A DNA stretch of 64,000 nucleotides, taken from contig CAIIXF020000012.1 in NCBI GenBank assembly GCA_903813345.2, forward strand, positions 15,618,020-15,682,019. The letters are read 5' to 3'. Both the position numbers and the translations under genes were made by a program. Position 1 is the first letter of the stretch. Every line of letters begins with the position of its first letter. Shown in pieces: positions 15,961 through 61,337 of this stretch. Source of the DNA: Owenia fusiformis. Taxonomy: Eukaryota; Annelida; Polychaeta; Sabellida; Oweniidae. The notes below the pieces were generated by a model. The model did no database searches. It was not told the DNA's origin and saw only the letters and a list, made by a program, of their open reading frames with translations.

Positions 15961-16547
15961 ATGCATAAACTTAAAGGCTCTTTGGCCGAAGTGCTAAAGA
16001 ACCTTAAAATGTAGGCTCTCCAGTCACGGCCTTATTTTTAACATCGCTGCACATGCGTATTGGAGGGAGTGGAGGGATCGAGTGTGAGTTTGGACCAACT
16101 TTTGCAATTTTGACCAGGAAATCACCTTTCATTTGGTATGTTAGTAACCTTTTTGATCGTATTGGTATGTAAGAATCATATATATGTCGAAATATAAGCA
16201 TAAATGTCACAGTTTGAAGGATAAATGGAAATATAAACACTTCCGGTAAATATTCTGACAAAGAGCTTTCGGACTTTTCTCTTCTATTACTAAAGGTAGA
16301 TTGATAGTGATGACTTTGACTGCATAGGAGTTCGATGTGCTATTGGAAAGCATCAGAACTCAGGATTTAAAACAAATTTGACACAAATACATCTGTTGGC
16401 TGGTATATCAATGTTTGAACGATAGTATGGATCGGAATTATTTTACTTTTCAGCTCAGAATAGAGTAGAAGGCGATTTCATGTATTTGTGATTGCTGAAG
16501 CGGTATGACCTCTGACCCATAACAACTGGGGAACTTTGACTTGGTAC

Positions 16548-16850
16548 AAGGAGGATTGGCTCCCAGAGTGCACCACCGATATTCTGTCCCATATATGGGT
16601 ATGTCGTAATACAAAATTCGAATTCAAACAGCCGCCATTTTGTTCACTTCAACATTTAAATCGTGAATTTTGGTCTTATTTCCAAACGAAAAATTCCAAA
16701 ACTCACAAGAAATGATCGAGATATTGGTTCGAATCTTTTGAACTGTTTATTTTGAATTTATAGTCGGTTTTAATTTCAGAAAATAACGACATTTCGACGT
16801 TTTCATTGTTGGAAAATATCGAGTTTCGATCCTGGGAGCCAATCCTCCTT
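16548..16850. mobile_element. 303-bp MITE, copy 1 of a tandem pair
   Basis: It begins AAGGAGGATTGGCTCCCAG and ends with the exact inverted form. It is flanked on the left by 'acttggtac' and on the right by the same word before copy 2. It is nearly identical to copy 2 over its full 303 bp and has no coding potential. Confidence 0.85.
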
Positions 16851-16861
16851 GGACTTGGTAC

Positions 16862-17164
16862 AAGGAGGATTGGCTCCCAGAGTGCACCACCGATATTCTG
16901 TCCCATATATGGGTATGTCGTTATACAAAATTCGAATTCAAACAGCCGCCATTTTGTTCACTTCAACATTTAAATCGTGAATTTTGGTCTTATTTCCAAA
17001 CGAAAAATTCCAAAACTCACAAGAAACGATCGAGATATTGGTTCGAATCTTTTGAACTGTTTATTTTGAATCTATAGTCGGTTTTAATTTCAGAAAATAA
17101 CGACATTTCGACGTTTTCATTGTTGGAAAATATCGAGTTTCGATCCTGGGAGCCAATCCTCCTT
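16862..17164. mobile_element. 303-bp MITE, copy 2 of a tandem pair
   Basis: Same length and ends as copy 1, with only a few differences (for example atgatcg versus acgatcg). 'acttggtac' again follows directly. Three copies of the target word thus alternate with two copies of the element, about 60 bp upstream of the MIF-family start codon. Confidence 0.85.
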
Positions 17165-17231
17165 GACTTGGTACAGGTTCAAAACATCCCATTTTCTAGT
17201 TTGGAAGAAGCACAGTTATCTCTAGTTAAAC

Positions 17232-19460
17232 ATGCCTTTAGTTGCCTTTCAAACGAACATACCTGCAGCTGAACTGCCAAGTGACATTGACCTGCAACTT
17301 GCTGATTGCGTAGCAAAGACCTTGGATAAACCCATTGAGGTAAGGATAAAAAGGGGCGGGGTCACTCTCAGAACTCTAAGGGTATTGGAACCAAGAAGCG
17401 TAACAAACAAGAGAATGATCCGAATACCAGGAAAGATATTGTGTTTTGTATTTCAATAAATTTTGTTATTTGTTTAGATGCTGATTGCCCATCTCTAGCT
17501 TCCATGTTCAAGGGCATTTCAAGAGTACAAACTGTCAACACTTCATCTTTCATCCATATATAACATTGGATTTTGTGGTATGAAAAGACCAGCCCTTCTT
17601 CTCTTTTCCTTTTTTACATCTGTATCTTGTCACTTCTTTAGCTTATGATTTTTCATTGTCACATCTGTACCTTGTCACTTCTTTACATTTTGCCTTTCCA
17701 TTGCCACATCTGTACCTTGTCACTTCTTTACATTTTGCCTTTCCATTGTCACATCTGTACCTTGTATTAATCTTTACCTTGTCTTGTCTTTATTAGACTT
17801 CATGATGTCCCTAGTCCCATGGCCATTGGGAAAGGCTGGTCTTTATCTTGTCTTATCTGAACCATAGGCCAAGGGTAAAGTAATAGTAAGCCGTATATAG
17901 AAGAGACAGGTGAACAACTCTGACTTAGACCACTTGTTAAGATGGAGATTTCAACAATATTTAGTGTATTATTTTCAAAAAGCCATGGGGAGTTGATAGA
18001 AAATTGATAGTTTGTAGCTCTTACCTAAGATTGAAACTCAGTCAGATGATATAGAGTGAATAATGCTGTCTAAAAGAGAGAATTTCTGAAAACCTACAAT
18101 TGCCTGGCAAGTTCATTAGTAAACAAGTGATCTGATTGGTCACTGCTGACCTCCCTGACCTCCACCAGTGACAATCAGTTTCAGCTTGCCAGGCAATTGT
18201 AGGTTTCCATAGTTGTTGTTTTATATGCAGTATAATATGCAGTTTTTAGATAAAGATTTGAAAAAAAACAATGATATAAGTTTGAAAAACACTTTGAAGA
18301 AGATTTTGGAGAAATTTGGGAATACAATTTGATACCCGTAAGGAGAACTAGTGCCAAGACTAAAAAAATTTGAATAATTTTCAATCTTACTTGTGGACCT
18401 GTCTCTTCTATATACAGCTTAGTATTACTTTTCCCTTGGCCTATGATCTGAACCTTGTCATCTCTAACTTGTCACACCATTGCCTATTCACTTTTTGTCA
18501 CATGTGTATATTGTCACACCTTTATCTTGTTACTTCTTTACTTAATCGCCCTTCAACCCTGTCACATATGTAGAATTTTATATCGTCATCTCTTTATCTT
18601 CTCAAATTATTTCATGTCACCTCTTAATTTTCTCATTTCAGAAAGTATTGGTCTCAGTTCAGCCAGGAATGACAATGAACTTTGCTGGTACAAGAGATCC
18701 CGCCATTCTTCTGAGTGTGAAGTCTATAGGAGTATTCAGTGCAGAGAAAAATCCCATATATGGGAAAAAACTCGTTGAATTTCTTCAGCCAAAATTCACA
18801 AAAGTTGGCCCAGCAAGGTATGTTATTAATGCTATTTTTCACAAAAATAGAGCGTGATTTAAAAGCCGAGATGTGAGTAGAAATTATCCTGATTTTCATC
18901 ATTAACTTCCAAAATGTGAATAGTTTATGGTGAGTACAGCATTCAAAATCAAAATATTTTAAACTGATGTTGAAATAACATTTTGCTGATTTTAATGTCA
19001 CATATCAGGCCCGTAGCCAGGGGGGTTCACAGGGTTCGGGCGAATCCCCCCTGGCCAAAAATTCTTTCAAAATCATGCAGTTTTCACCATTTTGAGCACT
19101 TCTCAAGTGATTTTAGCCTAATATTTGAGCCAAAATTGTCAAATGTGAACCCCCCTGGAAATTTTTGAAAACTGAACCCCCCTTGGCAAATCCTGGCTAC
19201 GGGCCTGCATATTGTTATAGTCACCAACTTTTTTGTGGGTGGAGGTTGGTGTTTAGCGTATGTAACAAATGGTAGGTTGTGATATTTTGCATGTTAATGC
19301 CCTGTTTTTGTTTCCCATTGTTTCTTCATTACACATGTAAAACTACCATATGCTTTTAACACACTCCCGAACCCATAATTTTATAAAATTTGATTTTATT
19401 TTCAGAATGAGGATTCTGTTTGTTCCTATAGTAGCGTTAACAGATATATTCTGGAATTAA
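17232..19460 (+). CDS. MIF-superfamily tautomerase (D-dopachrome tautomerase-like)
   Basis: Three exons (17232-17339, 18642-18817, 19406-19460) with GT-AG borders join in phase to a 112-aa protein. Length and three-exon structure match MIF/DDT genes. It starts MPLVAFQTNIPAAELPSD; after Met removal Pro-1 would be the catalytic base of the tautomerase active site. Lys in DKP at about residue 33 and the SVKSIG block (SISSIG in human DDT, SLHSIG in MIF) are conserved, and the chain ends TDIFWN. The CxxC redox motif of MIF is absent, which favours a DDT-like member. MIF proteins are small secreted homotrimers with cytokine activity in vertebrates; which activity applies here is not shown. Intron 1 carries a minisatellite and a 583-bp MITE. 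I cannot tell DDT from an invertebrate MIF paralogue by eye. Confidence 0.88.
17590..17775. repeat. ~45-bp tandem repeat
   Basis: Repeated units read 'cacatctgtaccttgtcact' then 'tctttacattttgcctttcc'. About three clear copies occur, and degenerate continuation appears on the far side of the MITE at 18455-18640. It lies in intron 1 of the MIF-family gene. Confidence 0.7.
17863..18445. mobile_element. 583-bp MITE with 8-bp target duplication (hAT-like)
   Basis: The ends are inverted copies of CATAGGCCAAGGG followed by (T/A)AAAGTAATA and GTATATAGAAGAGACAGGT, about 45 bp. 'atctgaac' flanks both sides directly (17855-17862 and 18446-18453), a perfect 8-bp duplication as made by hAT transposases. 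The middle holds a second inverted pair, 'aacctacaattgcctggcaa' (about 18080 and 18190). It has no coding capacity. Confidence 0.88.
19006..19207. mobile_element. MITE of the CAGGCCCGTAGCCAGG family, copy 1
   Basis: The ends are inverted copies of CAGGCCCGTAGCCAGG. 'catat' flanks both sides, a 5-bp duplication. Internal runs of C and G surround 'aaaatcatgcagttttcacc', which is shared with the copies at 27055, 46504 and 50394. It lies in intron 2 of the MIF-family gene. Confidence 0.85.
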
Positions 19461-21381: not shown

Positions 21382-21396
21382 TCATTGAAGAACACC
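21275..21396 (-). repeat. 15-bp tandem repeat covering the CDC45 stop codon and 3' UTR
   Basis: Read on the gene strand, the last codons GGT GTT CTT CAA TGA are repeated: GGTGTTCTTCAATGA, GGTATTGTTCAATGA, GGTGTTCTTCAATGA, then four diverged units. The first unit is coding (GVLQ-stop) and the next two would also read GV/I-L/F-Q-stop. The seventh unit mutates to CCAATAAACG, giving an AATAAA polyadenylation signal at 21291-21296, 86 bp after the stop. Confidence 0.85.
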
Positions 21397-24300
21397 TATC
21401 AGAGCATCAAAGAATTTGCTCTTATCTTCAGACTTGATTTGTATAACTGGAAATAAAAATTGATTTCTTTTATAACCAATATGCGAGAGAATTTTAATGT
21501 TTCTGTGGTTTCACAGAAGTTACAAAACTGTCAAACTTACATACTGTACAACAAGGTTAAGATCATATACTGTATATTAAAACAGTAATATGGCAAAACA
21601 AAAAATAAGAAATACTTCATGGTGATTAAGAGGATAATCTGAATGGACATTGATTGGGAATATGCATTTAATGAATGGTAAAACCAGATGTAAATGTTAA
21701 GGAAAGTTGCGAAAAAAAATTGGCTTAGATCTTACTAGGTCACAGGTGTCTTAATTTTTATGGGATTTATATACAATTTTAGTATCAATTGATATGTCTG
21801 TTTACTTTATTTCTTGCTAATTCCACTCTTTCACTGTATTTTGCAATTTAAACCATGACCATTATAGAGTTTTCTCATATATTCAATACAGCTGTACTTA
21901 CTGTGAGAGTCAAAGCTGTCAAGTAACATCCGCGAGTTTGTCATTTCACCCGCTTGCTCAAATGCCTTGCCAAAGAAGCTGAAATAATTTTTAAAATATT
22001 TCTCAAAACTATAACAATTTTCATTTGTTTAATGTCTTCCCTATCTAAAATGATTTTCGTAATATTTTGAAAACTATATTTAAAACAATTTTCACATACT
22101 CATAACATGAGAAACTGAAATGACTTTGAGAATCTTTTTATCAATTTAATAAATGCTTTACAATAAAAAAATACAAAAAAAAGAAATTTCAGATTGCACT
22201 TTATATAATTATCTAATGACTTTTAATACACATTTACTTTATTCCTTGCTGATTTCACTCTTTATTATTTCACATTTCAAAAACATGACAGCATAGAGTT
22301 TATCCAGAAAAGCTCTTTACCTGCGCCTACTTTCATCCAATATTGGAGGAATACCTATGATGATGGTTGTGCCAAGTTCAGCATCCAAGGGAGCCCCCAA
22401 CACAAGAGGTAGCGCTCGGTTCTTCTTGCTTTTACACTGAAATCAAAAAAGCATAGCATGAAAGTATCTGGTCATTACAATTGCTTTGTCTATCAAAATA
22501 TTGTAGTTAACATATATGACACAGATTTCAGAATTATGCAGGGGAAATACTGAAATTATGAAGCAAAAAACACAAAATTATGCGGGGAAAATGCAAATTA
22601 TGCAATATGGTTATTTTTTGAAATTCAAAATAATGCATAATTAAAATGCACCATGTAAAAACGTAATTCTGGGATCTCTGATATGAGCTTTACCCTTTCC
22701 GCATTAAATCATGTTTTATGGAGGATAACCCCCACACCCAACACCATTTTCACCCAACACTTAACACCCTTCTTTTACCCCACAACCGATGCCCTTTTCC
22801 CAAAGCCCACTTTTTACCACATACGAGGGGTGATCCAAAAGTCTTGGACGCCCTGCTCTATTTTTGTTGGTTTTTGATAAAATTACTTTAAACTTTCCAA
22901 TAATAAAGACAAACAACCTAACTACTTTGTGTATTAATTTCATGGAGAAATGATATATTTTGTATAGTTTTCTAGATAGTTTTTGATACAGGGACCCTGC
23001 CACCCGGAACGGTATTCGCACATGGCAACTTTCAGCCTTAAATGTTACCACCATTTCACTTGTTTCGCAAGTCTTGACCACTATATTTCTTTGAATTTTG
23101 AATTTTAAACCATGTTAGTTTACTTCCTTTGTTACTAGGCAACCAATTAATTGTGTTTTAATTATAATGTCACATATGACAATGGCCGCACATGTCAAAT
23201 TCTAAGAAAATGCCATCAGACAAGCAACCCTCATTCTCATATCATTTTTGCTGCAAGATGGCTGCTGAAAGGCAGAACACGAAAGAAATCAAAGTGGAAC
23301 AACGAATACTACAAGATATTGTCACTATTATTGACCTTGAGCAGCTACCATATGCACGATACAGTCTATCTATGGCTCCATGTAATTTTTTTCCTTTTCT
23401 CCAAGTTGAAAGGATGGTTGAAAGAAAATGTTTTTTACTCATCGAATGAGGTTTAGAGTAGCACTCCAGCAGCATTTGTATCACAGAAGCAATGACGGTT
23501 TCATAAATGTCTTCCATTCATTGGTAAAGTGGTATGAAAAATGTGTTCAAATTCGTTGAAAATATGTTGAAAAGTATGTCTTAATATGTGAAGATGATGA
23601 TTTCAGATGACACTCAGATTGAAAATCGAAAATTCTCTCATATCGTGGCTGGTGTTAGGTTGTGCACCTGCACCTAAAGTATTTGCCATAGTATAACAGT
23701 TGTGACGTGATTTGCTATATTCATATACCGTTCCGGGTGGCAGTGACCCGGTATTAAAATATATGTAGAAAAGTAGCTAAAATATATTATTTTCTGTTGA
23801 AACTTATACATAAAATTGTTAAGATGTTGATCTTTATTATCTGAAAGTTTCATGTAGTTATTTTTAAAAATAGCAAAGTTAGAGCGGGGCGTCCAAGACT
23901 TTTGGATCACCCCTCGTACATTTATTCAAAGAGTTCATCATACTTACAACAGACGCATATGCTTCTAATGTATAATGTGCCAGGCGTTGCAAACATATCG
24001 CCTTGGAGAAGAACTTCACATCAAGTGTTCCCTGAAATACAAAACGCATAAATGAGGCACAGAATCATTATGAGCAACAAAGGGGTGCATATATTAGATA
24101 AGGGGGTCAGAAAGATTCTTCAACTAAAAATTGGATTGAGTTGAATAATCTCCAAATAATGGAATAAACTGACTGTGACCCACATGCCCAGATGAGACAC
24201 ATAACAGACAGGGCTCATGATCCATTTCGGAGTTCAGTCAGGGAATACACATGAATATATAGACCCAAGGAAGTAGTAGCCGATCAGAATGCCACTGGGA

Positions 24301-27300
24301 TCGGCCAAGAGTGTTCAGAGAGGCAGGTGTTTGCAGTTAAGATTTTTAACATGGAAGTCTATGGCAGATCAAAAATGGGGCTGAAACAAGCATTCACATT
24401 GAGAGGTGTTGGAAATACTGATTTCACTAAAATGCAGAATTTAAAAAAATCAAACTTACTGGCTGTATGAAGGCATACAGGAAAGGTCCCGCAGAGACTA
24501 TCTGGTTCATATCAAGAAATGACTGAACTTGTGAAACGATTGCTTTAGTCTGCATCTTAGCCAATCCCAGGCATTTCTCTTTAGCTTCAACGTTTGCTCT
24601 GGTTAGAACATCTAGAGCACTGAGGAAACTGTCTGTCATACTAGCATCCCTGTCCTACAATGGAGTTCAATTCAACAATCAAATATTATTTTAAATGACA
24701 AACAAGGCATTAAAATCCAAATATCACAACCTGCAATTTATTACAGATGCCAAGCACTGAATGCCAAACACCGAACACCATCTACAAAAAGTTGGAGACT
24801 AACACTTGTGGTGGTGACAAAAATGCAAAGTACAACAGGCTGCATTTTTAGATAATCCAATGGAATTCAATTTATTTTAAACTACAACAAGATCTACCAG
24901 ACAATGTTTTTTTTGTGGCCCTGGACATTTCTCTGTGGTTTAAACAGCAAATCTGTGAAATTATATATGTACAGTCTGATAGTGAAAAGTGTATAAATGT
25001 AATATTTGTAACATCCCAAAATAGTGTTCCACTTATGGATGCAGATGTTGTTCCACTTACAGAGGTGTTCCACTTTACAAGCTTGATCAAAGAGGCAGGA
25101 GAACAAATCATAGACTTTTAGTATGAAATACCATGGTTTAAATAATACAAGTTCTGTTCAACACATTGAATTCACAGATGCCTTGAATTTGAAAAGAATG
25201 TTACAATTATAAAATTGAGAAACTTGCAAATATTGCTAAAAAACATGAGTATACGAAAAGAAACAAAGTACAAATCTGCCAAAACTGCTGCAGCAAATTC
25301 TGTGTTTTACAGTATCACAATTAACAAGGCTAGCCATGACAAATTACAATAAACAAGGCCAGCCATGACACATTACAATAAACAAGGCCAGCCATGACAC
25401 ATTACAATTAACAAGGCTAGCCATGACACATTACAATTAACAAGGCTAGCCATGACACATTACAATTAACAAGGCCAGCCATGACACATTACAATTAACA
25501 AGGCTAGCCATGACACATTACAATTAACAAGGCTAGCCATGACACATTACAAGTAACAAGGCCAGCCATGACACATTACAATTAACAAGGCCAGCCATGA
25601 CACATTACAATTAACAAGGCTAGCCATGACACATTACAATTAACAAGGCTAGCCATGACACATTACAATTAACAAGGCCAGCCATGACACATTACAATTA
25701 ACAAGGCCAGCCATGACACATTACAATTAACAAGGCCAGCCATGACACATTACAATTAACAAGGCTAGCCATGACACATTACAATTAACAAGGCCAGCCA
25801 TGACACATTACAATTAACAAGGCTAGCCATGACACATTACAATTAACAAGGCTAGCCATGACACATTACAATCAACAAGGCTAGCCATGACACATTACAA
25901 TTTACAAGGCCAGCCATGACACATTACAATTAACAAGGCTAGCCATGACACATTACAATTAACAAGGCCAGCCATGACACATTACAATTAACAAGGCAAG
26001 CCATGACACATTACAATAAACAAGGCCAGCAATGACACATTACAATTAACAAGGCTAGCCATGACACATTACAATTAACAAGGCTAGCCATGACACATTA
26101 CAATTAACAAGGCTAGCCATGACACATTACAATTAACAAGGCTAGCCATGACACATTACAATTAACAAGGCCAGCCATGACACATTACAATTAACAAGGC
26201 TAGCCATGACACATTACAATTAACAAGGCTAGCCATGACACATTACAATTAACAAGGCCAGCCATGACACATTACAATTAACAAGGCCAGCCATGACACA
26301 TTACAATAAACAAGGCCAGCCATGACACATTACAATTAACAAGGCCAGCCATGACACATTACAATAAACAAGGCCAGCCATGACACATTACAATTAACAA
26401 GGCCAGCCATGACACATTACAATAAACAAGGCCAGCCATGACACATTACAATTAACAAGGCCAGCCATGACACATTACAATAAACAAGGCCAGCCATGAC
26501 ACATTACAATTAACAAGGCCAGCCATGACACATTACAATAAACAAGGCCAGCCATGACACATTACAATAAACAAGGCCAGCCATGACATATTACAATAAA
26601 CAAGGCCAGCCATGACACATTACAATAAACAAGGCCAGCCATGACACATTACAATAAACAAGGCCAGCCATGACACATTACAATAAACAAGGCCAGGCAT
26701 GACACATTACAATAAACAAGACCAGCCATGACACATTACAATAAACAAGACCAGCCATGACACATTACAATAAACAAGGCCAGCCATGACACATTACAAT
26801 AAACAAGGCTCGCCAAGCTACACAATATTTTACTTACAATAGACTCTAAGACTGAGGAACAGGCCAGGACAACATCTGTGGCACACACTTTATTCTTGTA
26901 ACCATATGACGCATGGAATGAAGGTAGGAAAACATACTGTTTGTCAAACCTGGAAAAAAGTTTATCGAGCCCTTTAAAATGTTCTACAGGAGACTTACAT
27001 GGGCATGAGCATTTTGTTGGATCCTTTTCGTTTATATCAATTTACAATTTAAACCAGGCCGGTAGCTAGGAGGTTTGACCCCACTGGACAAAATTTCTTT
27101 CAAAATCATGCAGTTTCTTTCCATTCTGAGTTCTTTCCAGTGATTTTGGGCCAAAGTTGTCAAATGTGAATCCCCTGGTTTTTTTGAAAAGTGAATCCCA
27201 TGGCAAAAGCTGGCTACAGGCCTGTAAACTGTATGATAAATGTAAAAAAGTAATTCACCCAGTATTTGGGTACTACCCTACTACTGTATGTAGCTAGGCA

Positions 27301-30300
27301 CCCAGTTGGGATTACAAAAATCAGTGTGAGAAAGTTGAAAAAATGGATAATCCATAATGAACCTAGCTATAATCAATTTGCCCTTTGTAGATATATAATA
27401 ATTTTGAAAATCATGACAGAAAATGAAAAGTATGTACCCATATTTTTCCATTTTATCTAGGATCATAGAGCTGATTTCATCCTTGAAGTTGACATCCATA
27501 GCAGTCCACTTTTGTTGACATTGCACTAATGGTAGTCTACAAAACAATAAAAACACAATGCGGTGTTCAGATTAAACAGGTTTACTCTATTACTTTATCA
27601 GTCGGAGTGCTACATTCATGAATGTCATTATTTGAGAAAAAGCTTGAATCCCTTTTCACTGTCATCCCCTATACTACATGTCTTCCCCTTAACATATTCC
27701 CATCCAACAAATATCCATTTTCGGGACCTTACTAACATCGGAGAAATGACACTTGTAAATTAAATTGCTTGAAAATGACACATTTTAAAAAGAATTGCAT
27801 TTAAACTTTCTCTTTTTACCATGATTTATGGTGTATAATACCTTATGGGTATGTTTCATATCTATATACTGACTGAAAAAGAACACCACAAACAATATCA
27901 AACAAAAATATCTAAATATACATACCCCATATCTGCTAAAAACTCATGTAACTTTTTGCGTCCTTTCATAGTCCAGACACGGAACTTGCACGCCAGATAT
28001 GGTGAGTGACAGAGACTCTCAAATAACGACCAATGTCTGTAAAGCGTCAACTGTAGCTCCTCCTCATATGTGATCCTCAGACAGTTTACTGATATTGTAC
28101 TCTCAACATCATCTCCTCTACAAAAAGGTTTTGGTGTTTGCTATACTGAGTTGCCAAACTAACCTCTGATAGTAACCAACTGAATTTACATTGATTTACA
28201 ATCTTTTTGTTTTGGAGATGCTCAAAATATTAGCCGGGACAGAATAAGTCATCGCTCTCTTTTTCGGATAACTTTTTCAATTCTCAGTTTAATTATTTTA
28301 GATACCAAAGAGCACATACTTCATAAGGGTGCACACAGTATCAATGTCTTATTCCAACAAAGAAGTATTTTCTGGTTGCTACAGTAATCTACATGTACTA
28401 CATACCTGTGATTGTGCCTGGACACATGGTGCTGAAGTTCATCTATATAACTCATGTAAACATCTCTGTCAACTTTAAAGTTTATAAACTGGTCAGTAAC
28501 TCCTAGGATTGCTAACCTGTGGATGTATAAAACGCTAACTGGTTAAAGAACAGAAAGAGGTATATTTACCTTACAGCATTATTATGGGAGAAGGCAATAA
28601 ATATGCAAGCCAAAAATTTATTCATTTTGAATCTATGAGTTTCTAAGTCAAAAGATGGGCTGTTTTGTCAACACTTTCTAAAAATCACACAAAACAGAAA
28701 ATCCACTTGATGGGCCATACTTACCATAAAAGATCATTAGTGTCTTTTGACATTTTCCAAGCCATTTGGTACATTGTAAGTGCAGCCTGGAAGTATATTG
28801 GGTTATGCAACTTTAATCTATATCTTGGATATGCTGTAATTCTACATTCTTCAACTATTGATGTAGTCTTTACAGTGACTCAAAATCTTGTGTTTCATGT
28901 TAACTAATCTGGGGACTATTAACAGAAATTAACAGAAGGAATTCCTAAAATTCATTGTTGTCTAACTATGATGTCATCATATCTATGGTTACAACAACTG
29001 ATTTAAGAATTTTTAACTTTATGTAGTTTCTGATAATAACCCCAATGATCTCTAGAAAGCCCCTCGTTCAACATGCATTCAACAAATCATAATACTTTTG
29101 ACATTAAAGTGTATTGTACTTGTACTTACAGACTTTCCATATTTTGAATATTGTTCATATTCAAATAAAATATTTGTTCTTTTTTCTTCCCAGAGCCTCC
29201 GATTACGTCGTTTTTCTAAGGCCTCAGGATTAAATCTTCGTTTTTTTCCTGATGGTTCGGAACCTTCACTTTCATTTCCAGAGTCATCTTCGTCCGACTG
29301 CAATCAAGATGTTTTACATTTCTATTGGAAATATCAAATCAATTTTCATTGAATATGCTGCCAATTAACGATTCGAATTCTAAAAAATTCAATAGTGCTA
29401 ATTATTCCTTTTTGATAATTTCTATAAATAGATCATTTATTTTTCTGTTACCTCATCATCGCGAAAAACCTGGTCATATTCTGGTAGATCGTCCCCAGCT
29501 TCCCTTTCTTCCACTAACATCTTCACTTGTACTGCATTATATGCATTAAATACATCAATAGGCCTGTGGCTGAAACAAAAGGTGAAACAGACATGTTATT
29601 TGATGTACCAGTGAATAAATATTTAAAGAAATAATAAAATAAACATCTTGTTTTGTTACTTTAGAATGAGTTCAACAAAATAAAGAATCAAATACATACA
29701 TCTTGATGCATCCTGAATTTGAATGTTGCTTTAAGATTGAAAAATAAAATTCAATTTAGATTTTTTTCGAAAAATTTAAATTAACCTAAAAATTTAAACC
29801 ATTGCACACTTCAAATTTTCAATTAATGTATGGTTCAAAGGCGAATTAAGCCTAACAGTTACATACCTGTCACAGATATAAAAGAGGACTTTGTCTTCAG
29901 GTTGAAGTAGCTCAATGACATCAAAGTTTCCACCACAATTTAACATAACAACATATTTCACCTACAATCGACAAAGTACATGTAAACACAAAAATTGAAC
30001 AATACACGACTCACAAATATTACATAATTCTCCAGCAATTCTGGCACTCAATTTAATCAAGTTGTACTACAAGGTCAGAAATTAAAATTCAATGAAATGC
30101 ACCTATTGCACATCATTAGATTTTATTCACACTGATTCTTATATACTATATACAGTAAAACCTGTCTCAGTGAACACCTCTTTTCAGTGAACACTTGTGT
30201 CTAGTGAACACCCATTATCAGCAAATACTCAATGATTTCTGTATAAAATCACTTCTCTGGAATGAACACCTTCTTACAGTGAACACATATTTGTTCCTCC

Positions 30301-30799
30301 ATAGGTGTTCACTGGCTGTACACAGGTTTCACTGTATAACTATATTTTAAGTATAGTATATATGGGAGAACTTCCCACTATCTATGTTTTTACTTCTATG
30401 GTTTCATTACCCCTTCGGAATTCTCCTGGTATGCACTCTCCAGATCTTCCCGTCCTGACACAGGAACAACTGTGTATGGTACATGGTCACATTGGAATAG
30501 ATGAAGTAGAATCTTACACGCTGCTAATGCATCAACATCAAACCCGACTAATATCAACACGCGCTGGAAAAAAATATAGATATTTGAGGAGAACAATGAG
30601 GAAATAAAATATCTTGATGAAAGGACACTTACTTGATTGACATTGTTTTGTTGAAATTTCTTGAACTTGAACTTGAAGTGCATAAAAATAAAAATGTCCA
30701 ATTTATTTTCAGAGTTGAAGTTCAGATTTAAACTTCTTTACTCACCTGATGATCAATAACGTCGTAGAAGTCTTTCCTCAAATCATTGATGAACCCCAT
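21382..30799 (-). CDS. CDC45: Cell division control protein 45 (CMG helicase subunit), complete
   Basis: Fifteen exons, all GT-AG and in phase: 30746-30799, 30411-30563, 29867-29961, 29452-29569, 29130-29297, 28725-28786, 28406-28516, 27926-28117, 27438-27536, 26838-26949, 24460-24654, 23948-24031, 22321-22436, 21902-21978, 21382-21446. They total 1701 bp, giving 566 aa, the same length as human CDC45. Diagnostic stretches: [20 protein letters not shown] (DHH-like fold), [17 protein letters not shown], the acidic [19 protein letters not shown] insert, [30 protein letters not shown], and the C-terminus [15 protein letters not shown]. Cdc45 joins MCM2-7 and GINS to form the replicative helicase in the nucleus. 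The start is fixed by alignment with MFVSDFRKEFY of human and by the divergent UFD1 start 262 bp away. Introns carry a mariner-like element, a 29-bp minisatellite and MITEs. Confidence 0.97.
22824..23916 (+). mobile_element. Mariner-like transposon in CDC45 intron 12
   Basis: The ends are inverted copies starting CGAGGGGTGATCCAAAAGTC and both abut TA. Weaker inverted similarity continues for about 190 bp to 'gccacccggaacggta'. A decayed transposase lies inside on the plus strand. Like the element at 5424-6956 it has unusually long inverted repeats for a mariner. Confidence 0.85.
23190..23565 (+). pseudogene. Mariner transposase remnant
   Basis: Across two plus-strand frames one reads [16 protein letters not shown] (mariner PPYSPDLAPCDFF block), [20 protein letters not shown] and [18 protein letters not shown], the usual C-terminal order ending in a W-x-K-C-x-x motif. 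Frameshifts and stops separate the blocks, so it is not functional. The N-terminal DNA-binding half is missing. Confidence 0.7.
25317..26816. repeat. 29-bp minisatellite, about 51 copies, in CDC45 intron 10
   Basis: The unit is AATTAACAAGGCTAGCCATG followed by ACACATTAC (29 bp). Two variable sites give variants: AATTAA/AATAAA and GCTAGCC/GCCAGCC. The left half is mostly AATTAA, the right end uniformly AATAAA, and between about 26300 and 26540 the two alternate strictly. There is no spacer diversity of the kind seen in CRISPR arrays. Confidence 0.97.
27055..27224. mobile_element. MITE of the CAGGCCCGTAGCCAGG family, copy 2
   Basis: It begins CAGGCCGGTAGCTAGG and ends with the inverted CTGGCTACAGGCCTG. 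'taaac' flanks both sides. It shares 'aaaatcatgcagttt' and 'ttgtcaaatgtgaa' with copy 1. It lies in a CDC45 intron, close upstream of exon 10. Confidence 0.8.
30153..30334. mobile_element. Short Tc1/mariner-type MITE
   Basis: Ends CAGTAAAACCTGTCTCAGTG and the inverted form of CAGTGAAACCTGTG are flanked by TA on both sides. The interior is built of 'agtgaacacc' words. It is in CDC45 intron 2. Confidence 0.75.
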
Positions 30800-31061
30800 T
30801 TCTAGTCATTTGCGCTTAATAATTGGCAAAACTAGCTTTTATTCTTGAAATTTTATTTTATTTTTTTTTTCAATTTGGCGGGGTATTCCAAAACGATTTA
30901 AGAACTCAATTTTGATTGGTCAAAGGGTGAAATTCTTGAAAAGTTGGCCAATGAAAAAATTCATCACAAACCCTTCTCGGCTTTGTCATTCCAAGAAAAT
31001 AAACTTCCGGTTGAAAAAATATTTTTACAAAGATACACATAAACAATAATACAAGGCCATA
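30800..31061. promoter_or_regulatory. Bidirectional CDC45/UFD1 promoter
   Basis: Only 262 bp separate the start codons of the two divergent genes. The interval holds an E2F-type site TTTGGCGGGG (30874-30883), two CCAAT boxes (ATTGG at 30915-30919; CCAAT at 30948-30952) and an ETS-type ACTTCCGG (31003-31010). E2F control suits CDC45, a known G1/S gene in animals. No TATA box in a sensible place was noted. Actual transcription starts cannot be read from sequence. Confidence 0.8.
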
Positions 31062-34000
31062 ATGGTAAGATAGATTATATTTTGTTGATCCAATTGTTAA
31101 TGTAGTAGTAATTCAATATATTGTATTAATCTTAGACGGTTAGAGATTGGGCTGTGACCTAAAAAATACTTTAAAAAATGAGTGGGCGATAATAGGTAAA
31201 GTACAAAGTCATTTTTGATGAATATCAGGCCTGTCAACTTGGGAACACCTAACATGAGTGACTTGGAAATGTTAAACACCTCCCCTCAAAATGTGGACAC
31301 CTTGGTCCAAATCTGAACACCTTGATCCAAATTTTGAACACCTTGGTTTAAATTTTATTACATCTTGCCAAATTTTGAACACCTTTTCGCGCTCGCTACG
31401 CTCGCGTTTCAAACATCCATCGACGGGGGGGGGGGGGGGGGGGGGGGGTAGGTACGAAAAATTTCGAACGGAATGCGTGACATATACGTAATTCGCGTGA
31501 AAAGTCCGAACGAAATGCATACATTTTTTTCCCGCGTTCGTATTTTTGCTGTGTAGACGATCTTTTTTGAGAAATTTTTCTACAGAAACATTTTTGCTTG
31601 ACAATTACCAGGTAAAATGCGTATTTGCGTGACATTTTCTGTCACGCAAAAATAACTGGCGTGACTTCAAATTCTTCAGCAAATGCGTGACAAATACGCA
31701 AATTGCGGGACAGTTGACAGGCCTGGAATATGCATAGTAACAAACATAAATACACCCAAATTTATTAGATCGATGGCATGGGACTTTCTTCATCTAAGAA
31801 ACAGTGTCGATTTCATGGTTTAAAACATTCTTTGGTGATTCCATTTACGAACTATGCACGAAAGTCCATTCAAAGTTGTCTATTTAACCTTGAAAAGCCA
31901 TATTTAGACTGAGGATTGAAAGTTGTTCACAACAACTGTCAGCTCATCTTTATTTTGATGAACTGGAAGTGAATCTTCGAGTCGAGTAAATTGTGATAAT
32001 GTTCTGTTTATGAATTGGGGAAGTCAAAACATTACAAACAGAAATCATAGTAAGCATTTGAAGATCATTTAGAAGCATTTAAAGTTGAATCCACTGCAAA
32101 ATTTGAAATAATTGAAATTCTTCCACGCCAAACTCAGAGAGCACACTTAGGGATTTATAATCGATGATCCTACCTAAATATGGTATGTATACTGGTCTTG
32201 ATTGTTGTTCCATATCGCCCAGAATCCCTTTAAACGAACTATGAAAATTTCCAATATGAACACTGGCTTGTCATTTCCGGAAGTAATGATACATTAAATT
32301 ACCAAACATATATGAAATAGGAATTTTTGTTCATTCATTTATCCTTGCAGCTCGACTGAAATGCCAATAAAATGAATTAGTGACTCTAATGATACAATCA
32401 TATTAATTTCATGATAGAGGCAACGTCAAATAAGAAACGTAAAATGGAAACTTTGAAAAATTAGTAAGACTAATTTCGTGTTAATTTCTATCGATTACTC
32501 TACTCGTGTTCTATGTTGACAAAATTGACAAGCTGATGGGGTTCAATTTACTCAATGTATACTACCATCTGGAAGGCACGGGAGGGTCCCATTTATGAGT
32601 AACTCTTATTTCATATATCTCATTGAGCTGCTTGCCTTTCTTTAGGTGAAACATATACACTGATATACGGGTTCTATACTACAGTTTGGACCATAAATAA
32701 ATGAGTCATATATTTGCTGAAGTGAGGATTTCCCATGTTAAAAATAAGAGAATTTCCAAGAGGCCAGACATCAGCAGATGAGAGTCATGGATGGGAATAT
32801 AAATTGCATCAAAATGGCCGGAAAGTTAGTTCTTTGACAACTGGACTGCACTCTTATCATAATGTACATGTAGTATTATAATTTTAACTAATTGGCTGGG
32901 TAAGTTATCTAAATAACATCATTTTTTGCAGTCTAGCTGGTTAGTAGAAATTCCTAACACTAATTATACAAAAGAGCCCCATCTCATTGTAAATGTAACC
33001 TGGGTACGTTCACATTCATTTCCCAATTTGATGCATTGCAGTTTGGTGGACATTTTCACGGAGGCATGTTCCAGCATGATCTACAAGGTTCATTTAAGAC
33101 AACGTATCGCTGTTACTCTGTATCCATGTTACCAGGCAACGAAAGACAAGATGTGGAGAAAGGCGGTAAAAGTAAGACTGTTTGTTGATCATTTCTATAT
33201 ACCTTTTCATTAAAAAGTGCTGTTAGATTATTTCTAATAAATGAAGGTCGGGACAAGCATTGTGATGCAGAATTTCTATTTTGATTTTGTGAGGCTACTG
33301 TAACAACCTTTGATAACAAGTTGCTACTACGGCCAAACTGTAGTGGCTTAAGCCTTTATAGTCCAGTCGTTAGAGCATCAGACTTTGGATCCAAGGGTCC
33401 TAGCTTCGATTCCCACGTGGGACATTGAATTTAGCACACTTTCTTTCAATTTCTTTATCTGGCTTGTTACACTATACTCGTTAGTTTGTCCCTTTGGGTG
33501 CCCTTGGGTCATTACACTACGAATGCCATACACCAGTTGTAGAGCAAATGTGACCGAGGCTTTAGTGACTTGATTTTATATTGGTAACTTAATGATTATT
33601 GAATTAACAACCTAAACGCATACAATAGATTTCTTTAAAAATGCTTTGTAAAATAATGTTTGCACACAGTATAAACATAAAAAACAAATTAGATTTACTA
33701 TTTTATTTGCAGTTATAATGCCCCCATCTGCATTAGACAAGCTAAGTAAGTGAAACACATTTTTATGATACATATCAGTGATCTCCCCAGCATTAAAGCA
33801 AGTGGGCGCAGCACCCACCTGAGATTTTGAAAATAGGCTTGCACCCACCTGAAAATCCATATGCACCCACTTAAAGTAAGAAAAATCATGAAAAATTGGC
33901 ATATTTCGACCAATTTTGGTCTGAATTGTGAAAATGAAAATTTTGTCTCACCTGAGAAAAAATCCTGGGGAGATCACTGCATATTATATTGTGTCACCAC

Positions 34001-37000
34001 CAGAAGAACTTTTTTGTGGATGGTGTTTGGCGTTCAAGGTTCAGCATCTGGAGGCCGTTTCTCAAAACTTATCCTTATTAACGAATCGTTAATAGAGAAT
34101 CATGGATTTGTTTCTATGGACACCACATCGTTAATTGAATAACGAGACCCCCATTCATACTCATAAAACCAATCATGGATAACGAATAAATCGTTAAAAA
34201 TCATGACGTCATCGCGAATCGTAGAAAAATCATTATTGAATTAATGATTTGTCAATAACGAAACTCTCCGTAAATGACCTCCTAACGCATTTTTACAACA
34301 TCCAATAACTGGTGGAGTCATTTTGTCATATTAATGCCTTGTTAATTTTTTCACATGAGTAAATCTACCAATTTTTCTCAGGTATGAATTAGTACAATAT
34401 TGTTATAACTAGAAATTAGTACAATATTGTTATAACTAGAAATTAGTACAATATTGTTATAACTAGAAATTAGTACAATATTGTTATAACTAGAAATTAG
34501 TACAATATTGTTATAACTAGAAATTAGTACAATATTTTTATAACTAGAAATTAGTACAATATTGTTATAACTGGAAATTAGTACAATATTGTTATAACTA
34601 GAAATTAGCTCATGATTTTTTAAGGTCCTAACAATTAAAGCTCAATTGACGAATACCATTTACCCTGCAGATCTAAAATCATAAAACCATTTATCAGACA
34701 AACAAGTGAATATTTACATTTTTTGTTTTTTCATTTATTTTCAGCACGACTCAACATACAATACCCGATGTTGTTCAAACTGACAAACACTAGAACGAAG
34801 AGAGAAACTCATTGTGGCGTATTAGAGTTTGTGGCTGACGAAGGCAGGATCTATCTTCCATATTGGGTGTGTGTTGTAAAATTTACAAGAGTTAATATTA
34901 GAAAAAGTTCTGCTCTGTTTCCTCAAAAATGTTTCTTCGTAGATTTTTCTAATTATTGGTTGCAGGCATGCCCTATGTAGTACTTAATCTCTGTATGTCC
35001 TATCATTAAGTCATCATATTTTTCCATAACTGGCAGCAATGTCATAACAGGATAGGTGGATTGTTTATTAGTCAATATCATTTGATGAATATTTGGTCAT
35101 AGTAATGTGATAAGTGGCATGACAACATACATGATACATAGAACAATTGATATATCCTTATTCATCCTGACCAGTAAATAACAGATATATCCCATATAAA
35201 TAACAGATAATCCTTTCTCTTACTCTCAATGTTATAATTGAATTTGTGATTAAATACATGTACAAAATATCTTACTATATCTAATGTGAGAATTTTTGTG
35301 ATTTATGAATCAAACTTGATATCAGGATTGAAATGATGATGGATTAGCATCACTGTCTCTGCAGTCTCGAGGTTCCTCCCAATTTTTAAAACAGAATTTT
35401 TTATTGCATAACTTTGGTCACCTAATATCCTGCGGGTCATTAACAGAAACTTCGTAAAGTTACGAATTCTTAATTCAATTGTTGTAGCCATGGATACAAT
35501 GACGTCACAGTTAGAGAACAATGGACTTTACAAATTCTTAACGTGATGAAGTTTCTGTAAATGGCCCCCTGATTATGAGTCAGGTAATTTGAGAAGGGCT
35601 CATTGTACTAAATGATCATTATCAAAAATTGCCTGTATAAGTCCATTCAATGTTTTTGTTACAGATGATGAGGAATTTGTTGTTGGAAGAAGGAGCCCTC
35701 GTTGGAATCGAATGCATCTCACTCCCTGTCGCAACATTTACAAAATTCCAGCCACAGTCTACAGACTTCCTGGACATCTCAAATCCCAAAGCTGTGTATC
35801 CTTTAGCAACTTTTATTTGTGTTTTTATGTCAGCACCACAAGAGGCACCCTCCTAAGCAGGTATCCAGAATACGCACCTCCTTCTTCCCCCTGCTATAAC
35901 CAATTTGGAAGCGCCCGATTAAACTGAATCACGTGATCTAATTATGCGCAATGACATATACATGATTTCTGTCGCAGCGTTGCGACAGCCAATCAGATTG
36001 CGAGTTCTTAATCGGGGAAATGCTAACTGCTTATCGCAGGGGGTGAAAAGAAAGAATATATTCTGGATTTTGGAGCCCTGTGATCGGAGGATGCACAAGA
36101 GGTGACATATTGTTATAGTCTCCAACTTTTTTGTGGCAGTGGTTGGCGGTTGGTGTTCAGCGGCTGGTGTTTTGTGTTCAGCATTCAGCGGTTTGTGTTT
36201 AGCATTTGGCATCTGTAACAAATGGCAAGTGATCATTATTTTGCTTGTTAATGCCTAGTTTTATAATGTCATGTGTTGTGGTAAGGATTCAAATATATCA
36301 AAGGATGTCATTCATTTCATTTTAGGGTGTTAATTCGCTATATGCGTTAAGGGCCACTTCTTTATACTGACATCAATATCTGATTTGATTCTTTGCGATT
36401 AAAAGTCAAATATAGATTCAGGTGACCGAAGTGATTGAAAGTCAGCAAGATATGTTATTACATCAACAGCAAGAAGTATTGACATATTGCTATGTCCTCT
36501 ATTTATTGTGTCAGCAGTTGATCATCAGCATTCAATGTCTGTAACTATTGAACACCTTTGTAACAAATTGCAGTTACAAACCAGGTATTGATATTTTATT
36601 GTGTTAATCCCTTGTACAAATATTGTTTCTTAACCAAGTTACAGACTTGAAAATGCTTTGAGAAACTTTGCATGTCTTTCTACCGGGGATATTCTAGCCA
36701 TCAAATACAATGATCGGGTAAGTAAGCAAAATATGTCCATGGTGATACACATTACTTCATTTTTCAACACAGGCTCTCACTATGAACACTTTTAGTCAAT
36801 TCAAATTCAAAATCATTACTCATTCTTTGAAAAACGTCAATAAAACCTCAGATGTCAGACCTCTAGTGAGGAGAGGCTAGGGGAATCACCCCCCCCAAAT
36901 TATCTCCATGTAATTATTCTACTGATACTTATTTCTTGATGTTTTTTTTATTTTAATCATGAGAATTAATGATTGTCCCAAACTACATTGGCTTAAGTTT

Positions 37001-39264
37001 CACCTTGCCTATTTATTCATTCTTGCTAGTTTTGCTTCCTAGCCACTGATTTAACATTTAATTTTCTAGGACTATGAACTATGTGTACTAGAGACAAAAC
37101 CTGGCAAAGCGGTATCAATCATAGAGTGTGATATGAATGTCGACTTTGCGCCCCCTGTTGGCTATGAGGAACCCACACGCAATGCACCCACAGCCAAGAC
37201 ACATGAGGAGGAAGAAGAACCTGGTGTTGATATGACCGATTATGTTGATCCTAATCAGTTTAAGGTATGGATCTTATAGAAATTAACCCCCCCTTAGGAC
37301 TTATGGTCCCCTCTTTATATGAACCATGCTAGCCCTGAGTATTTTTCTACTGACTATCTTTGGTCGTTTATGTGGTGTCTCGTAAGCCGATGTTGGCTGT
37401 TGGTTTTTTTAATAGATGTATTTTTTACTTGTAATATTTTTGTAAACCTGTGACACAGAAATAACCTATCATTAAACTTAAACTAAGTATAGATTGATAC
37501 AGAAACATTATAAACAGTGCACTATATATAAAGTATCAAAGATTGAAAGAGAGAGCCATATTGTTTGCTGAGGACCAGAAAGACATGTGTATCATGACTC
37601 CTCACTAGAATAGTATTGCAAAGGTCTAAAACTTCTGTTCAATAAATTGTGAATATATTTTTGATTTTCTTCTTTTGTTGTAAAATTTGACCTAGACAGT
37701 GCATCAGACAACAGACTTTTTTCAATATTCAGTAATTCAGTAAGAATACTTTTTGTTGCAGATATTCAGTGGTTCAGGAAACAGACTAGATGGCAAAATA
37801 AAGAATACAGAAAGTGCACCAATTACTGGACAGACAAGTGAAATAAAAAGGTAAAATTCTGAAAAATTCTAGCTAATTCTTCAAATGAAAAATTGCCCAA
37901 TTAAACCACTTTACACTTACAGTAGCCTGAAGTATATACTCACACCGGAATAGCCTGACTACGGTAAAGTCAGATACCGTTGTCACAAATTGCAGACATA
38001 ACCGTCGCTTCAACTGTTTAATCACTTGGTCCTCATCTCATGGGATTTTATTGTATCGAATTTAGTCTAGGTGCTCTATTAAACATACAGTTCATGAAAA
38101 TCTAATTGAAGCGATGGTTATGTCCGCCATTTGTAACACCAGTATCTGACTTTACCATTGTCAGGCTATTCCGGGGTGATACTGTAATAGTAAGTAAGTA
38201 CCTAGCATGGAATGTTAGGAAGACAAGATTCATGTGTGTCAGAAACCAATAAATAACCACCACAAGAAATCCCACACAATGTTTGGTGATTTTATAGTAT
38301 TTTTGCATCAAGTCTCGACATAATTATTTACTTCATCTTAAACTCACGGACCTCTACCAGATTACCTCTTCTTCAGTGGTGTCTAGGCTCAATAAATATA
38401 CTCATCCTTTGAGCCTACTACCAATAGGGACTGGATCTGGCTCCAGATCTGTGCTTAAACTTGCAGAGATGATTTCTGCTAGAGGGGAGCTGAAGCGAGA
38501 CTTATTTTCTAGATCTTGAAATGGAAAATTCAGTTGAATTAAAATTCACTTGACCATGGATAATTTATTCGGTTGTGCTTTAAGACATCTTTGCTTATTA
38601 TTAATAACATTAACAATTGAATCATATGATAAGATTGTGATCATTCTTACATGTTTGTTTTTATTTGTTTGCAGAGGAATTCCAAATTATAATTACAAGA
38701 AAGGAAAGATCACATTTATTCGTACCCAGAAAAAGATAGAAAATGGAGCTGATGTATGTAGAATTTAAGCATTTTATCATCATCTCTATTCTCATCAAAT
38801 AACATTTTCAAATCTTATACAGGGGCAACGACACACAATGCATTGACTTAAATGTCTTGGAAACCAGATATCTGATAAACAATATTAAATTCCTGCTCAC
38901 TACTGCCACGTTTGCCATGACATCTATATTTCATCTTAAAATGCACATTGTACAATTGTTGATTATTGAGAGATCAGAAACAGTTATACGTTGTCTTATT
39001 GAGATGAGCCTGTGTATTTTTACTTGAACTAGCTATAGGCTATGACAAAACTCAAATGATCAAATTAATTTCACAAGATTCGGGGACACAGAATTTGCCA
39101 AAAACTAGGCCTTTTGTAACCATAATCTCATAAAAATAAGTCTAAATTGATTGTAATGCTATTGAGTTGAGTTGTTATTTGTTTTATTCCAGATGGACAA
39201 TGATGACTTTGAGGCATTTTCAGGATCAGGACAGTCTTTACGCAAGACTAAAGGACGGAAGTGA
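31062..39264 (+). CDS. UFD1: Ubiquitin fusion degradation protein 1 (p97/Cdc48 cofactor), complete
   Basis: Ten exons, GT-AG and in phase: 31062-31064 (the ATG alone), 33042-33171, 33713-33745, 34745-34866, 35665-35795, 36645-36717, 37070-37264, 37762-37850, 38675-38753, 39193-39264. They total 927 bp, giving 308 aa (human 307). Diagnostic stretches: [92 protein letters not shown], and a C-terminal RGIPNY / [10 protein letters not shown] segment that carries the p97-binding motif. Ufd1 pairs with Npl4 to recruit ubiquitinated proteins to the p97 ATPase for ER-associated degradation and chromatin extraction; the latter includes unloading of the CMG helicase that contains CDC45. The start is chosen because exon 1 is ATG followed directly by a GTAAGA donor and reading continues [11 protein letters not shown], in line with human MFSFNMF. 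Confidence 0.97.
31226..31725. mobile_element. 500-bp inverted-repeat element with poly-G tract, UFD1 intron 1
   Basis: Ends CAGGCCTGTCAACT and AGTTGACAGGCCTG are inverted copies, and 'gaatat' flanks both sides (6 bp). Inside are repeated 'aacacctt' words, the palindrome 'cgcgctcgctacgctcgcg' and a run of about 22 G near 31427-31448. It has no coding function; the frames across it are repeat-driven. Confidence 0.75.
33345..33590 (+). mobile_element. SINE with tRNA-like head, UFD1 intron 2
   Basis: The head carries 'tagtccagtcgttagagca' (A box/D arm) and 'cttcgattccc' (B box/T arm) about 50 bp apart, with 'agactttggatccaagggtc' as an anticodon-arm remnant. The acceptor stem does not close. 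An unrelated body follows ('tttgggtgcccttgggtcat'). This head-body layout is typical of tRNA-derived SINEs. The 3' boundary is uncertain. Confidence 0.6.
33776..33979. mobile_element. 204-bp MITE, UFD1 intron 3
   Basis: It starts CAGTGATCTCCCCAG and ends with the exact inverted CTGGGGAGATCACTG. 'catat' flanks both sides (5 bp). The interior repeats 'gcacccacctga'. Confidence 0.85.
34040..34283. repeat. Foldback/MITE-like segment, UFD1 intron 3
   Basis: 'ggaggccgtttctcaaaact' at the left is partly matched inverted by 'gaaactctccgtaaatgacc' and 'tcc' at the right. The interior is full of 'taacgaatcgttaat' words. The arms are diverged and no clear target duplication is seen. Confidence 0.45.
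34388..34612. repeat. 27-bp tandem repeat, about 8 copies
   Basis: The unit ATTAGTACAATATTGTTATA followed by ACTAGAA is repeated nearly perfectly in UFD1 intron 3. Confidence 0.95.
35425..35572. repeat. Foldback element, UFD1 intron 4
   Basis: 'gtcattaacagaaacttcgt' at the left is matched inverted by 'gatgaagtttctgtaaatgg' at the right. The inner arms 'acgaattcttaa' and 'acaaattcttaacg' also pair. It resembles short PIF/Harbinger-type MITEs but no target duplication was proven. Confidence 0.5.
35846..36093. mobile_element. 245-bp-family MITE, copy 2, UFD1 intron 5
   Basis: About 95% alike to the copy at 20479-20723 by eye. 'cacaagagg' flanks both sides exactly (9 bp), starting 42 bp downstream of UFD1 exon 5. 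It includes 'cagccaatcagattgcgagt', which contains a CCAAT word. Confidence 0.85.
38341..38455. repeat. Dispersed repeat, inverted partner at about 54640-54745
   Basis: 'gtgtctaggctcaataaata' and 'gagcctactaccaatagggac' here reappear reverse-complemented at 54640-54745, which share 'gatccagtccctattggtag'. This is an interspersed family of unknown type. Confidence 0.7.
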
Positions 39265-59600: not shown

Positions 59601-61337
59601 GGTGCACGAATCCATGTCTGTGACAATGAGCAACAGCGGAGGCGAGTTGCATGAAGTACTTCTTTGAAGTCGCCTCTCCAAGTCCCTTAAATGGTCCTTC
59701 TGCTGACACGGCATTGATGTTCGTCAGAAGATCACCACCGTCGCATCTTTCTAACACCATGTACATGAAACTGGGAGTCTCGAAACAATCATACATTCTC
59801 ACCTACGTAAGATAACAAATACACAGGTGAATACATGTAGAGACTATCAAAAATGTTTTTATTTAAATCTAGTTATAAATCTCTTTCATGTCTTTTATGT
59901 TATATTAAAATGCATGGATTGATAGGACATGGTGCAAGCTATTGAAATGAAACACTTGTCCGTCCGTTTGTCTGACAACGCATACGTGGCTCATTTGCAA
60001 TCCTCAAGAGAATCCAAATGATGTTACCATTTTTCTATATAGTCTTCAATTATCCCAGAAGTCGAGTCTCAAAAGCTCGCCTTGTTTCAAAATAGCGGCC
60101 ATTTTGTTGCCGAAAATCAGATTTTCAGCGCTTTCACCATGTGACCATTCTGACATGTAAAATCGGAAAAACTGGTCAAACTTTGTTACAATATAATATG
60201 CTGAAAGCTTGCATAAAACAGGATTTGTATGAATTAAATAACACTGATGACACATTATATTTTAACAATATTAACATCAAGAAAGTGTCATCACAAAACA
60301 TTAGAGAGTCACTTGTTCTAAAAAGAACATGCAAAATCAAATATGATGGGATAAATATATCTGAAGGAATATGGAAATCCCTTTTTCATTGTACAAAAGA
60401 AGCATCACTGTTAGTTATACAATGGAAGATTTTCCATAACATATACCCTAATGGTGTTTATCTAAAAAAATGTAAAATAGAAACAAGTGATTTATGCAAA
60501 CAATGCAATGCAAGTCATGATAACTTACATTTTTTCGTTACTTGTCCCTCTATAAGTATTTTATGGCAAGGTAGCCAGTTGAACAATAACGAAAAGTTAG
60601 GACTGGCTGAAATGAAGCCAGAGTTATTTTACGAAACCCTTGTTATTAAGAAAACTATTCATGATTTCAAATATAAGAACTGTGAGGGAAATTTATTGTT
60701 TTTATATGAGAGCGAAAAAGCTCTTAGATTGTAAATATTATGTATTGTATATATGTTATTTGGAATAAAAAAAAAAAAAAAAAAAATGTGACCATTCTAC
60801 CCATGGTTTACATGATTGTGGTTTTAGTTTTTGAGTGAAACATCTCCTTACCATATTTTTATGCGGAGGAATCGACCGCATTGCATCTAGTTCACGTGAT
60901 AGGAATTTTATGTAATAATCTTTCGGGATGTCTCGCTTATTAACGATTTTGAGAGCTACCTGGAAGTAAAACTATGCTAATTATTCAAATATAAAATGAA
61001 AAAGGCTCGGAGAAAGTATTAGCATATGATCACTTTTATTTACTCGTAATGCCCAGATAAATAAGTATATATAAGTCACCGTAATTTTTCCGTCGATGGC
61101 AGTCCAATCGATGTCCTTGATCCGCCTTTTTCCACAATCAAGCACTTCTCCAAGTTTCACCTTGGCATACGCTCCTGTTCCAAGCACTGTTTTCAACAAT
61201 TTATAACCTTTACACATACACTCTGCGGATTCTAATGCATTTTCATGGTCCAGTTGTGTTTCTTTTTGAAATGCCGCTAGTGTTAGCATTGCCCTTCTTG
61301 TAGTCGAGGAATTTGGCCTCCTCGTTCTTGTTGCCAT
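56663..61337 (-). CDS. TSSK-like serine/threonine protein kinase with long basic tail
   Basis: Eight exons, in phase: 61080-61337, 60852-60959, 59600-59802, 59228-59283, 58696-58855, 58113-58234, 57661-57800, 56663-57454, giving 612 aa if the last exon runs to its stop. Kinase landmarks: glycine loop LGTGAYAKV (52-60), VALK with Lys-90, HRDLKCEN (Asp-191, Asn-196), DFG (209-211), activation segment [14 protein letters not shown] (CPE in place of APE), [20 protein letters not shown], and subdomain [34 protein letters not shown] and the PFDD block place it near the testis-specific TSSK branch of the CAMK group. TSSKs act in late spermatogenesis in vertebrates; a germline role here is inference. 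Unusual points: an insert between the glycine loop and VALK ([18 protein letters not shown]), and a tail of more than 250 residues rich in Lys, Ser and Pro, absent from TSSKs I know. The donor after exon 6 (GTATTA) is weak but the phase fits. Confidence 0.88.
58930..59115. repeat. ~31-bp tandem repeat, six diverged copies
   Basis: Units read 'aatcatgtgtcttggcaatg' then 'gtcagaataaa', in intron 4 of the TSSK-like gene. Confidence 0.88.
60152..60785 (+). mobile_element. 5'-truncated LINE insertion with poly(A) and target duplication
   Basis: The insert is flanked by the 13-bp direct repeat 'atgtgaccattct' (60139-60151 and 60786-60798) and ends in about 19 A after GGAATAAA. Its open frame (to the TAA at 60732-60734) encodes the C-terminal reverse-transcriptase region: [19 protein letters not shown], then [19 protein letters not shown] (the zinc knuckle) and ILWQ. 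The frame is unbroken, so this is a recent insertion by target-primed reverse transcription. It lies in intron 2 of the TSSK-like gene on the opposite strand, inside an older repeat related to 55003-55830. Confidence 0.92.

Follow-up and report, generated by a model that had tools for sequence, protein, structure and literature searches.

The human UFD1L-CDC45L promoter was reportedly the subject of a paper by Kunte and others in 2001. PMC2887419 illustrates bidirectional promoter regions with this pair and gives very different breadths of expression for the two genes: UFD1L is expressed in 71 of 73 tissues and CDC45L in 11 of 73. Both genes lie within the human 22q11.2 deletion region (PMC4487986). 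The available text of PMC6554986 names TRMT2A–RANBP1 as having a bidirectional promoter and does not describe CDC45–UFD1 in this way.

Among chordates, 372 putatively ancestral bidirectional promoters were reported, the majority of which were lost in vertebrates (PMC6292497). Many human bidirectional promoters postdate the split between chicken and fish, and 60 of 821 human pairs have orthologs in all seven other species considered (PMC2423431), so that deep bidirectional promoters are a minority in that set. Furthermore, functional relatedness of the partners was excluded as a general driver of pair conservation (PMC3403606). Among the literature matches listed, which leave most subscription papers out of scope, there was no description of CDC45 linked to UFD1 beyond the vertebrates, and the available text of PMC8497571, PMC5560861, and PMC2789411 contained nothing bearing on the pair. 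Here, we describe this pair in Owenia, where the compactness of the spacer allows a test of whether head-to-head pairs are kept by a need for co-regulation or by the entanglement of their promoters.

Gene models, layout, and neighbourhood

The window, that is, the whole stretch of DNA analysed here, spans 64 kb (contig C12, 15,618,020–15,682,019) of a 498-Mb assembly of 525 contigs, which was the genome searched. It contains CDC45 on the minus strand and UFD1 on the plus strand, in divergent orientation, with 262 bp from ATG to ATG. The original prediction had placed a head-to-head pair with a 262-bp spacer at 30800-31061, and these coordinates are exact. The features of the two genes are as follows.

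21382-30799, minus strand: CDC45, 15 coding exons, 566 amino acids
30746-30799, minus strand: coding exon 1 of CDC45, with the start codon at 30799-30797
30800-31061, no strand: 262-bp spacer between the start codons, a probable bidirectional promoter
31062-39264, plus strand: UFD1, 10 coding exons, 308 amino acids, with the ATG at 31062-31064
31062-31064, plus strand: coding part of UFD1 exon 1, consisting of the ATG alone and followed directly by the donor GTAAGA
33042-33171, plus strand: UFD1 exon 2

All introns of the two models have GT-AG ends, and the predicted proteins match Protein Data Bank chains of CDC45 (up to 636 bits) and UFD1 (up to 403 bits) over nearly their full length. Judged in this way, both genes look intact. 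A search of the genome for the CDC45 family gave two matches, both within the CDC45 gene of the window, and a search for the UFD1 family gave one, the UFD1 of the window; such searches score only the best candidates and some stretches read N, so that they do not strictly exclude extra copies of either gene. A scan of viral contigs with UFD1 gave no relative. When aligned with the Protein Data Bank chain u160535 (9e2z_E), which we take to be human CDC45, the Owenia protein is identical at 270 of 560 aligned residues (48%). For comparison, PMC4487986 tabulates values of 74 (zebrafish) and 39 (fly), which we take as percent identity. Judged by these figures, the protein would be that of an animal outside the vertebrates. 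A search of the assembly for COX1 gave no match.

The two genes are thus neighbouring, protein-coding, on opposite strands, and divergent, as in head-to-head pairs, and the 262 bp between their start codons is below the approximately 1 kb between start regions used to define such pairs. Their transcription starts are at most 262 bp apart unless upstream untranslated exons exist. From this layout we infer that CDC45 and UFD1 may share a promoter. The same divergent pair had been claimed for human, in agreement with the one paper that treats human UFD1L/CDC45L as a bidirectional promoter region (PMC2887419).

The wider neighbourhood is looser. HIRA is near CDC45–UFD1 in human and mouse; for zebrafish, the account consulted names only a tbx1–tango2 cluster. 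In Owenia, our search gave a single HIRA-family locus, which shares the contig of the pair and lies at 6.83 Mb. This match is 8.8 Mb away from CDC45–UFD1, which means that the pair is tight and HIRA is not. At the other end of CDC45, the gene is adjoined by the start of a MIF-family gene (17226-17456); MIF and DDT are on human chromosome 22. An old chromosome linkage may therefore be visible via HIRA and MIF, but CDC45–UFD1 is the one tight pair among the neighbourhood genes considered.

The window has several other features. Two 314-bp tandem copies with 98% matches lie just before the MIF-like gene (16536-17175). In CDC45, intron 10 includes a 29-bp tandem repeat of approximately 51 copies with 96% matches (25317-26809), and intron 12 includes a mobile-element-like insert (22823-23917), which is presumably mariner-like; its 28-bp inverted ends match perfectly, and its outer edges have TA. 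Intron 1 of UFD1 has a run of 24 G (31425-31448), and other G runs of 10-18 are at 46548, 48813, 50555, and 52850. Near the end of the window there is a TRAF/MATH-domain exon (61977-62333) and, on the minus strand (60984-61367), a testis-specific-kinase-like exon identified by eye only and lacking a Pfam match. In the 64-kb window, Rfam at the gathering threshold gave no match and ARAGORN no tRNA.

Words in the spacer and their rarity

We searched the spacer for E2F, NF-Y (RRCCAATSR), and ETS words, using fixed consensus forms that were not fitted to it. The following words were found.

30874-30881, plus strand: E2F-type word TTTGGCGG, 75 bp from the CDC45 ATG
30913-30921, minus strand: perfect NF-Y site RRCCAATSR; its CCAAT is on the strand of CDC45, at 116-120 bp from the ATG of that gene
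30946-30954, plus strand: perfect NF-Y site RRCCAATSR; its CCAAT is on the strand of UFD1, at 110-114 bp from the ATG of that gene
31003-31010, minus strand: ETS-type word CCGGAAGT, 52 bp from the UFD1 ATG

The two NF-Y sites are 33 bp apart and on opposite strands, that is, inverted. This gives a near mirror layout, in which the strand of each gene carries a single perfect CCAAT box, approximately 110–120 bp before the ATG of that gene. A third CCAAT, a plain one, is at 30822. The spacer is AT-rich, with 29.8% GC and 5 CpG. CDC45 has a putative E2F site near its start, as do E2F-controlled replication-gene promoters; the stricter E2F form TTSSCGC has no occurrence in the spacer, where the E2F word is TTTGGCGGGG.

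How often would such words arise by chance? In 20,000 dinucleotide shuffles of the 262-bp spacer, the E2F word was produced 1,560 times (7.8%), and this word alone is hence weak evidence. At least one NF-Y word was found in 801 shuffles and at least two in 8, the ETS word was found in 49, and the E2F word with two NF-Y words in 1. It is the NF-Y pair and the ETS word that carry most of the signal above chance. The full set appeared in 0 of the 20,000 shuffles, and the earlier claim that the spacer has E2F, CCAAT, and ETS words is borne out, all of them being present and jointly above chance. Apart from those around the spacer, no 262-bp frame of the 64-kb window has two NF-Y words. On the scale of the genome, the arrangement of TTTGGCGG, 20–50 bp, ATTGGYY, 15–45 bp, and RRCCAATSR has a single match in the 498-Mb assembly (stretches reading N excepted), at the spacer, and its backwards control has 0 matches; base composition predicts 0.06 matches genome-wide. 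The arrangement was derived post hoc from the spacer itself and therefore these results show rarity, not function.

These counts also bear on whether chance could account for the locus, either because the two genes met independently in the lineages of Owenia and of vertebrates or because the words are coincidental. Animal gene neighbourhoods are often scrambled, plain CCAAT is common (150 in the window), and the E2F word is frequent among shuffles. Still, among tens of thousands of genes it should be very improbable that two genes, each with one locus, would come together independently in an identical orientation and at tight spacing, and the complete set of words was never produced by shuffling. 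We thus regard chance as a very improbable explanation.

On balance, we think it rather probable that the spacer acts as a two-way promoter of old origin, in which an NF-Y core is flanked by ends specific to each gene, and that the pair is kept because the two promoters are entangled. CDC45 and UFD1 would be transcribed in opposite directions, both starting within the one short spacer. The central inverted NF-Y sites, if bound, would open the region and probably serve both genes. At the CDC45 end, the E2F site would probably add S-phase control to CDC45, and at the UFD1 end, the ETS site would probably add a steady housekeeping drive to UFD1. Such gene-specific ends would fit the differing breadths of expression in human (71/73 versus 11/73; PMC2887419). 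The two core promoters would overlap physically within approximately 260 bp, and the CDC45 and UFD1 proteins need not cooperate. We propose that the pair stays together because nearly any break within these 260 bp would damage an essential gene.

The same words could be read in another way, as two independent one-way promoters placed back to back, with each set of words serving only the nearer gene and adjacency persisting through inertia, the genome being slow to rearrange. The E2F word does adjoin CDC45 and the ETS word UFD1, the forward CCAAT of each gene is the nearer one, and the breadths of the human genes differ (PMC2887419). However, 262 bp would leave little room for two separate promoters. 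Inertia could draw on the survival of two of four other head-to-head pairs in the same genome (see below), but it does not hold generally, given the distance to the HIRA-family match and the two control pairs that were not seen intact. We consider this reading rather unlikely.

Replication genes and other head-to-head pairs in the same genome

An E2F word is present within 250 bp upstream in all three replication genes with a placed start, namely CDC45, ORC1, and PCNA. The background, which includes the words at these three genes, is 21 words in 121,607 bp of the sequence examined, or 0.043 per 250 bp. Upstream of the PCNA ATG, two E2F words begin at -163 and -146, and there is an NF-Y word at -212. 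ORC1 has an E2F word 10–17 bp before an ATG that was judged by eye. NPL4, the partner of UFD1, was located in the genome by a search with PF05021, a search with PF11543 giving no match. In the 9.9 kb considered, no first exon bearing the start codon was recognised and the E2F word was absent.

The NPL4 locus also has a tandem array. At L023:279-1975 (contig C9, about 10,555,278-10,556,974), the start of a coding exon is repeated in approximately 10 tandem copies of 153 bp (9.9 copies by TRF, 11 frames by eye). Each copy has its own 3' splice site and approximately 38 codons, and only the last one continues into further NPL4-like sequence. The repeat resembles a series of decoy splice acceptors preceding a real exon.

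As controls for the retention of the pair, we used HSPE1–HSPD1 and PPAT–PAICS, which we assume to be head-to-head pairs in human, together with two others. The latter, ORC1–PRPF38A and CDC26–PRPF4, are named as human head-to-head pairs in PMC3815023. Two of the four, ORC1–PRPF38A and PPAT–PAICS, are kept in the Owenia genome. ORC1 and PRPF38A are head to head with 236 bp between their start codons; PRPF38A was identified by Pfam and ORC1 by an exon matching ORC1 chains (81 bits), the ORC1 start being placed by eye, using a short frame that Pfam does not match. The genome also has a second PRP38 locus (L015). PPAT and PAICS are head to head as well, the former identified by its match to amidophosphoribosyltransferase chains and the latter by Pfam; exon 1 of PAICS was not located, and hence there is no gap length for this pair. 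For the other two pairs, we relied solely on visual inspection or on motif words, a procedure that would miss more distant partners: HSPE1–HSPD1 was not seen in approximately 8.2 kb upstream of the HSPE1 exon, the first exon of HSPE1 not having been located, and CDC26–PRPF4 was not seen in approximately 8.6 kb upstream of CDC26.

As two of the four control pairs are retained, CDC45–UFD1 belongs among several survivors and is no exception. That only two were seen intact means either that entanglement does not always hold pairs together or that our search was too short-ranged. With the same definitions, the 236-bp spacer of ORC1–PRPF38A has an E2F word and neither NF-Y nor ETS words, so a centrally placed NF-Y pair is not a regular feature.

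The controls also bear on the idea that CDC45 and UFD1 were kept together so that factors for the assembly of the helicase and for its p97-driven removal are co-produced in S phase. The biochemical premise is well supported, as had been claimed: Cdc48-Ufd1-Npl4 disassembles ubiquitylated CMG in vitro (PMC7462611), and CDC-48 with UFD-1-NPL-4 has been linked to the release of CDC-45-GINS in C. elegans and Xenopus (PMC4853748). The further claim of the original prediction, that retention points to a functional reason, is not supported. The same genome retains ORC1–PRPF38A, which joins replication to splicing and has no link of this kind, and PPAT–PAICS is likewise head to head. UFD1 serves many p97 substrates other than CMG. 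Furthermore, the breadth of expression in human is very different for the two genes (PMC2887419), and relatedness of partners has been excluded as a general driver (PMC3403606). The same-genome controls thus lean against a special functional story for CDC45–UFD1, and we judge co-production to be quite improbable. The helicase-unloading reason is attractive, yet it is not needed to explain the control pairs. A bolder version, slightly less probable still, is that the promoter is a single, very old unit that has balanced helicase loading against p97-driven removal since before the vertebrates, with the E2F/NF-Y core of CDC45 supplying part of the drive of UFD1 when cells proliferate.

Comparison with known bidirectional promoters

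We return to the entangled two-way promoter as our preferred reading, and ask how it compares with described systems. The closest one is human UFD1L-CDC45L in 22q11.2, where these two genes likewise occur and their start regions share a single short stretch. For the human layout we rely on PMC2887419 alone, and the comparison covers layout and composition. The two differ in composition: the human starts are under a CpG island (PMC2887419), whereas the Owenia spacer is AT-rich.

Within the same genome, ORC1–PRPF38A resembles CDC45–UFD1 in that a replication gene with an E2F word at its start backs onto a housekeeping gene across approximately 240 bp. It differs in lacking the NF-Y and ETS words, both of which the CDC45–UFD1 spacer has. 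Finally, the putatively ancestral bidirectional promoters of chordates (PMC6292497) are, as CDC45–UFD1 probably is, cases in which an old head-to-head layout has been retained outside vertebrates, but that set was defined by CAGE start data or by the order of neighbours. The Owenia pair extends to a distant animal a gene pair from a human disease region whose bidirectional arrangement has already been published, in a class of promoters that is itself known.
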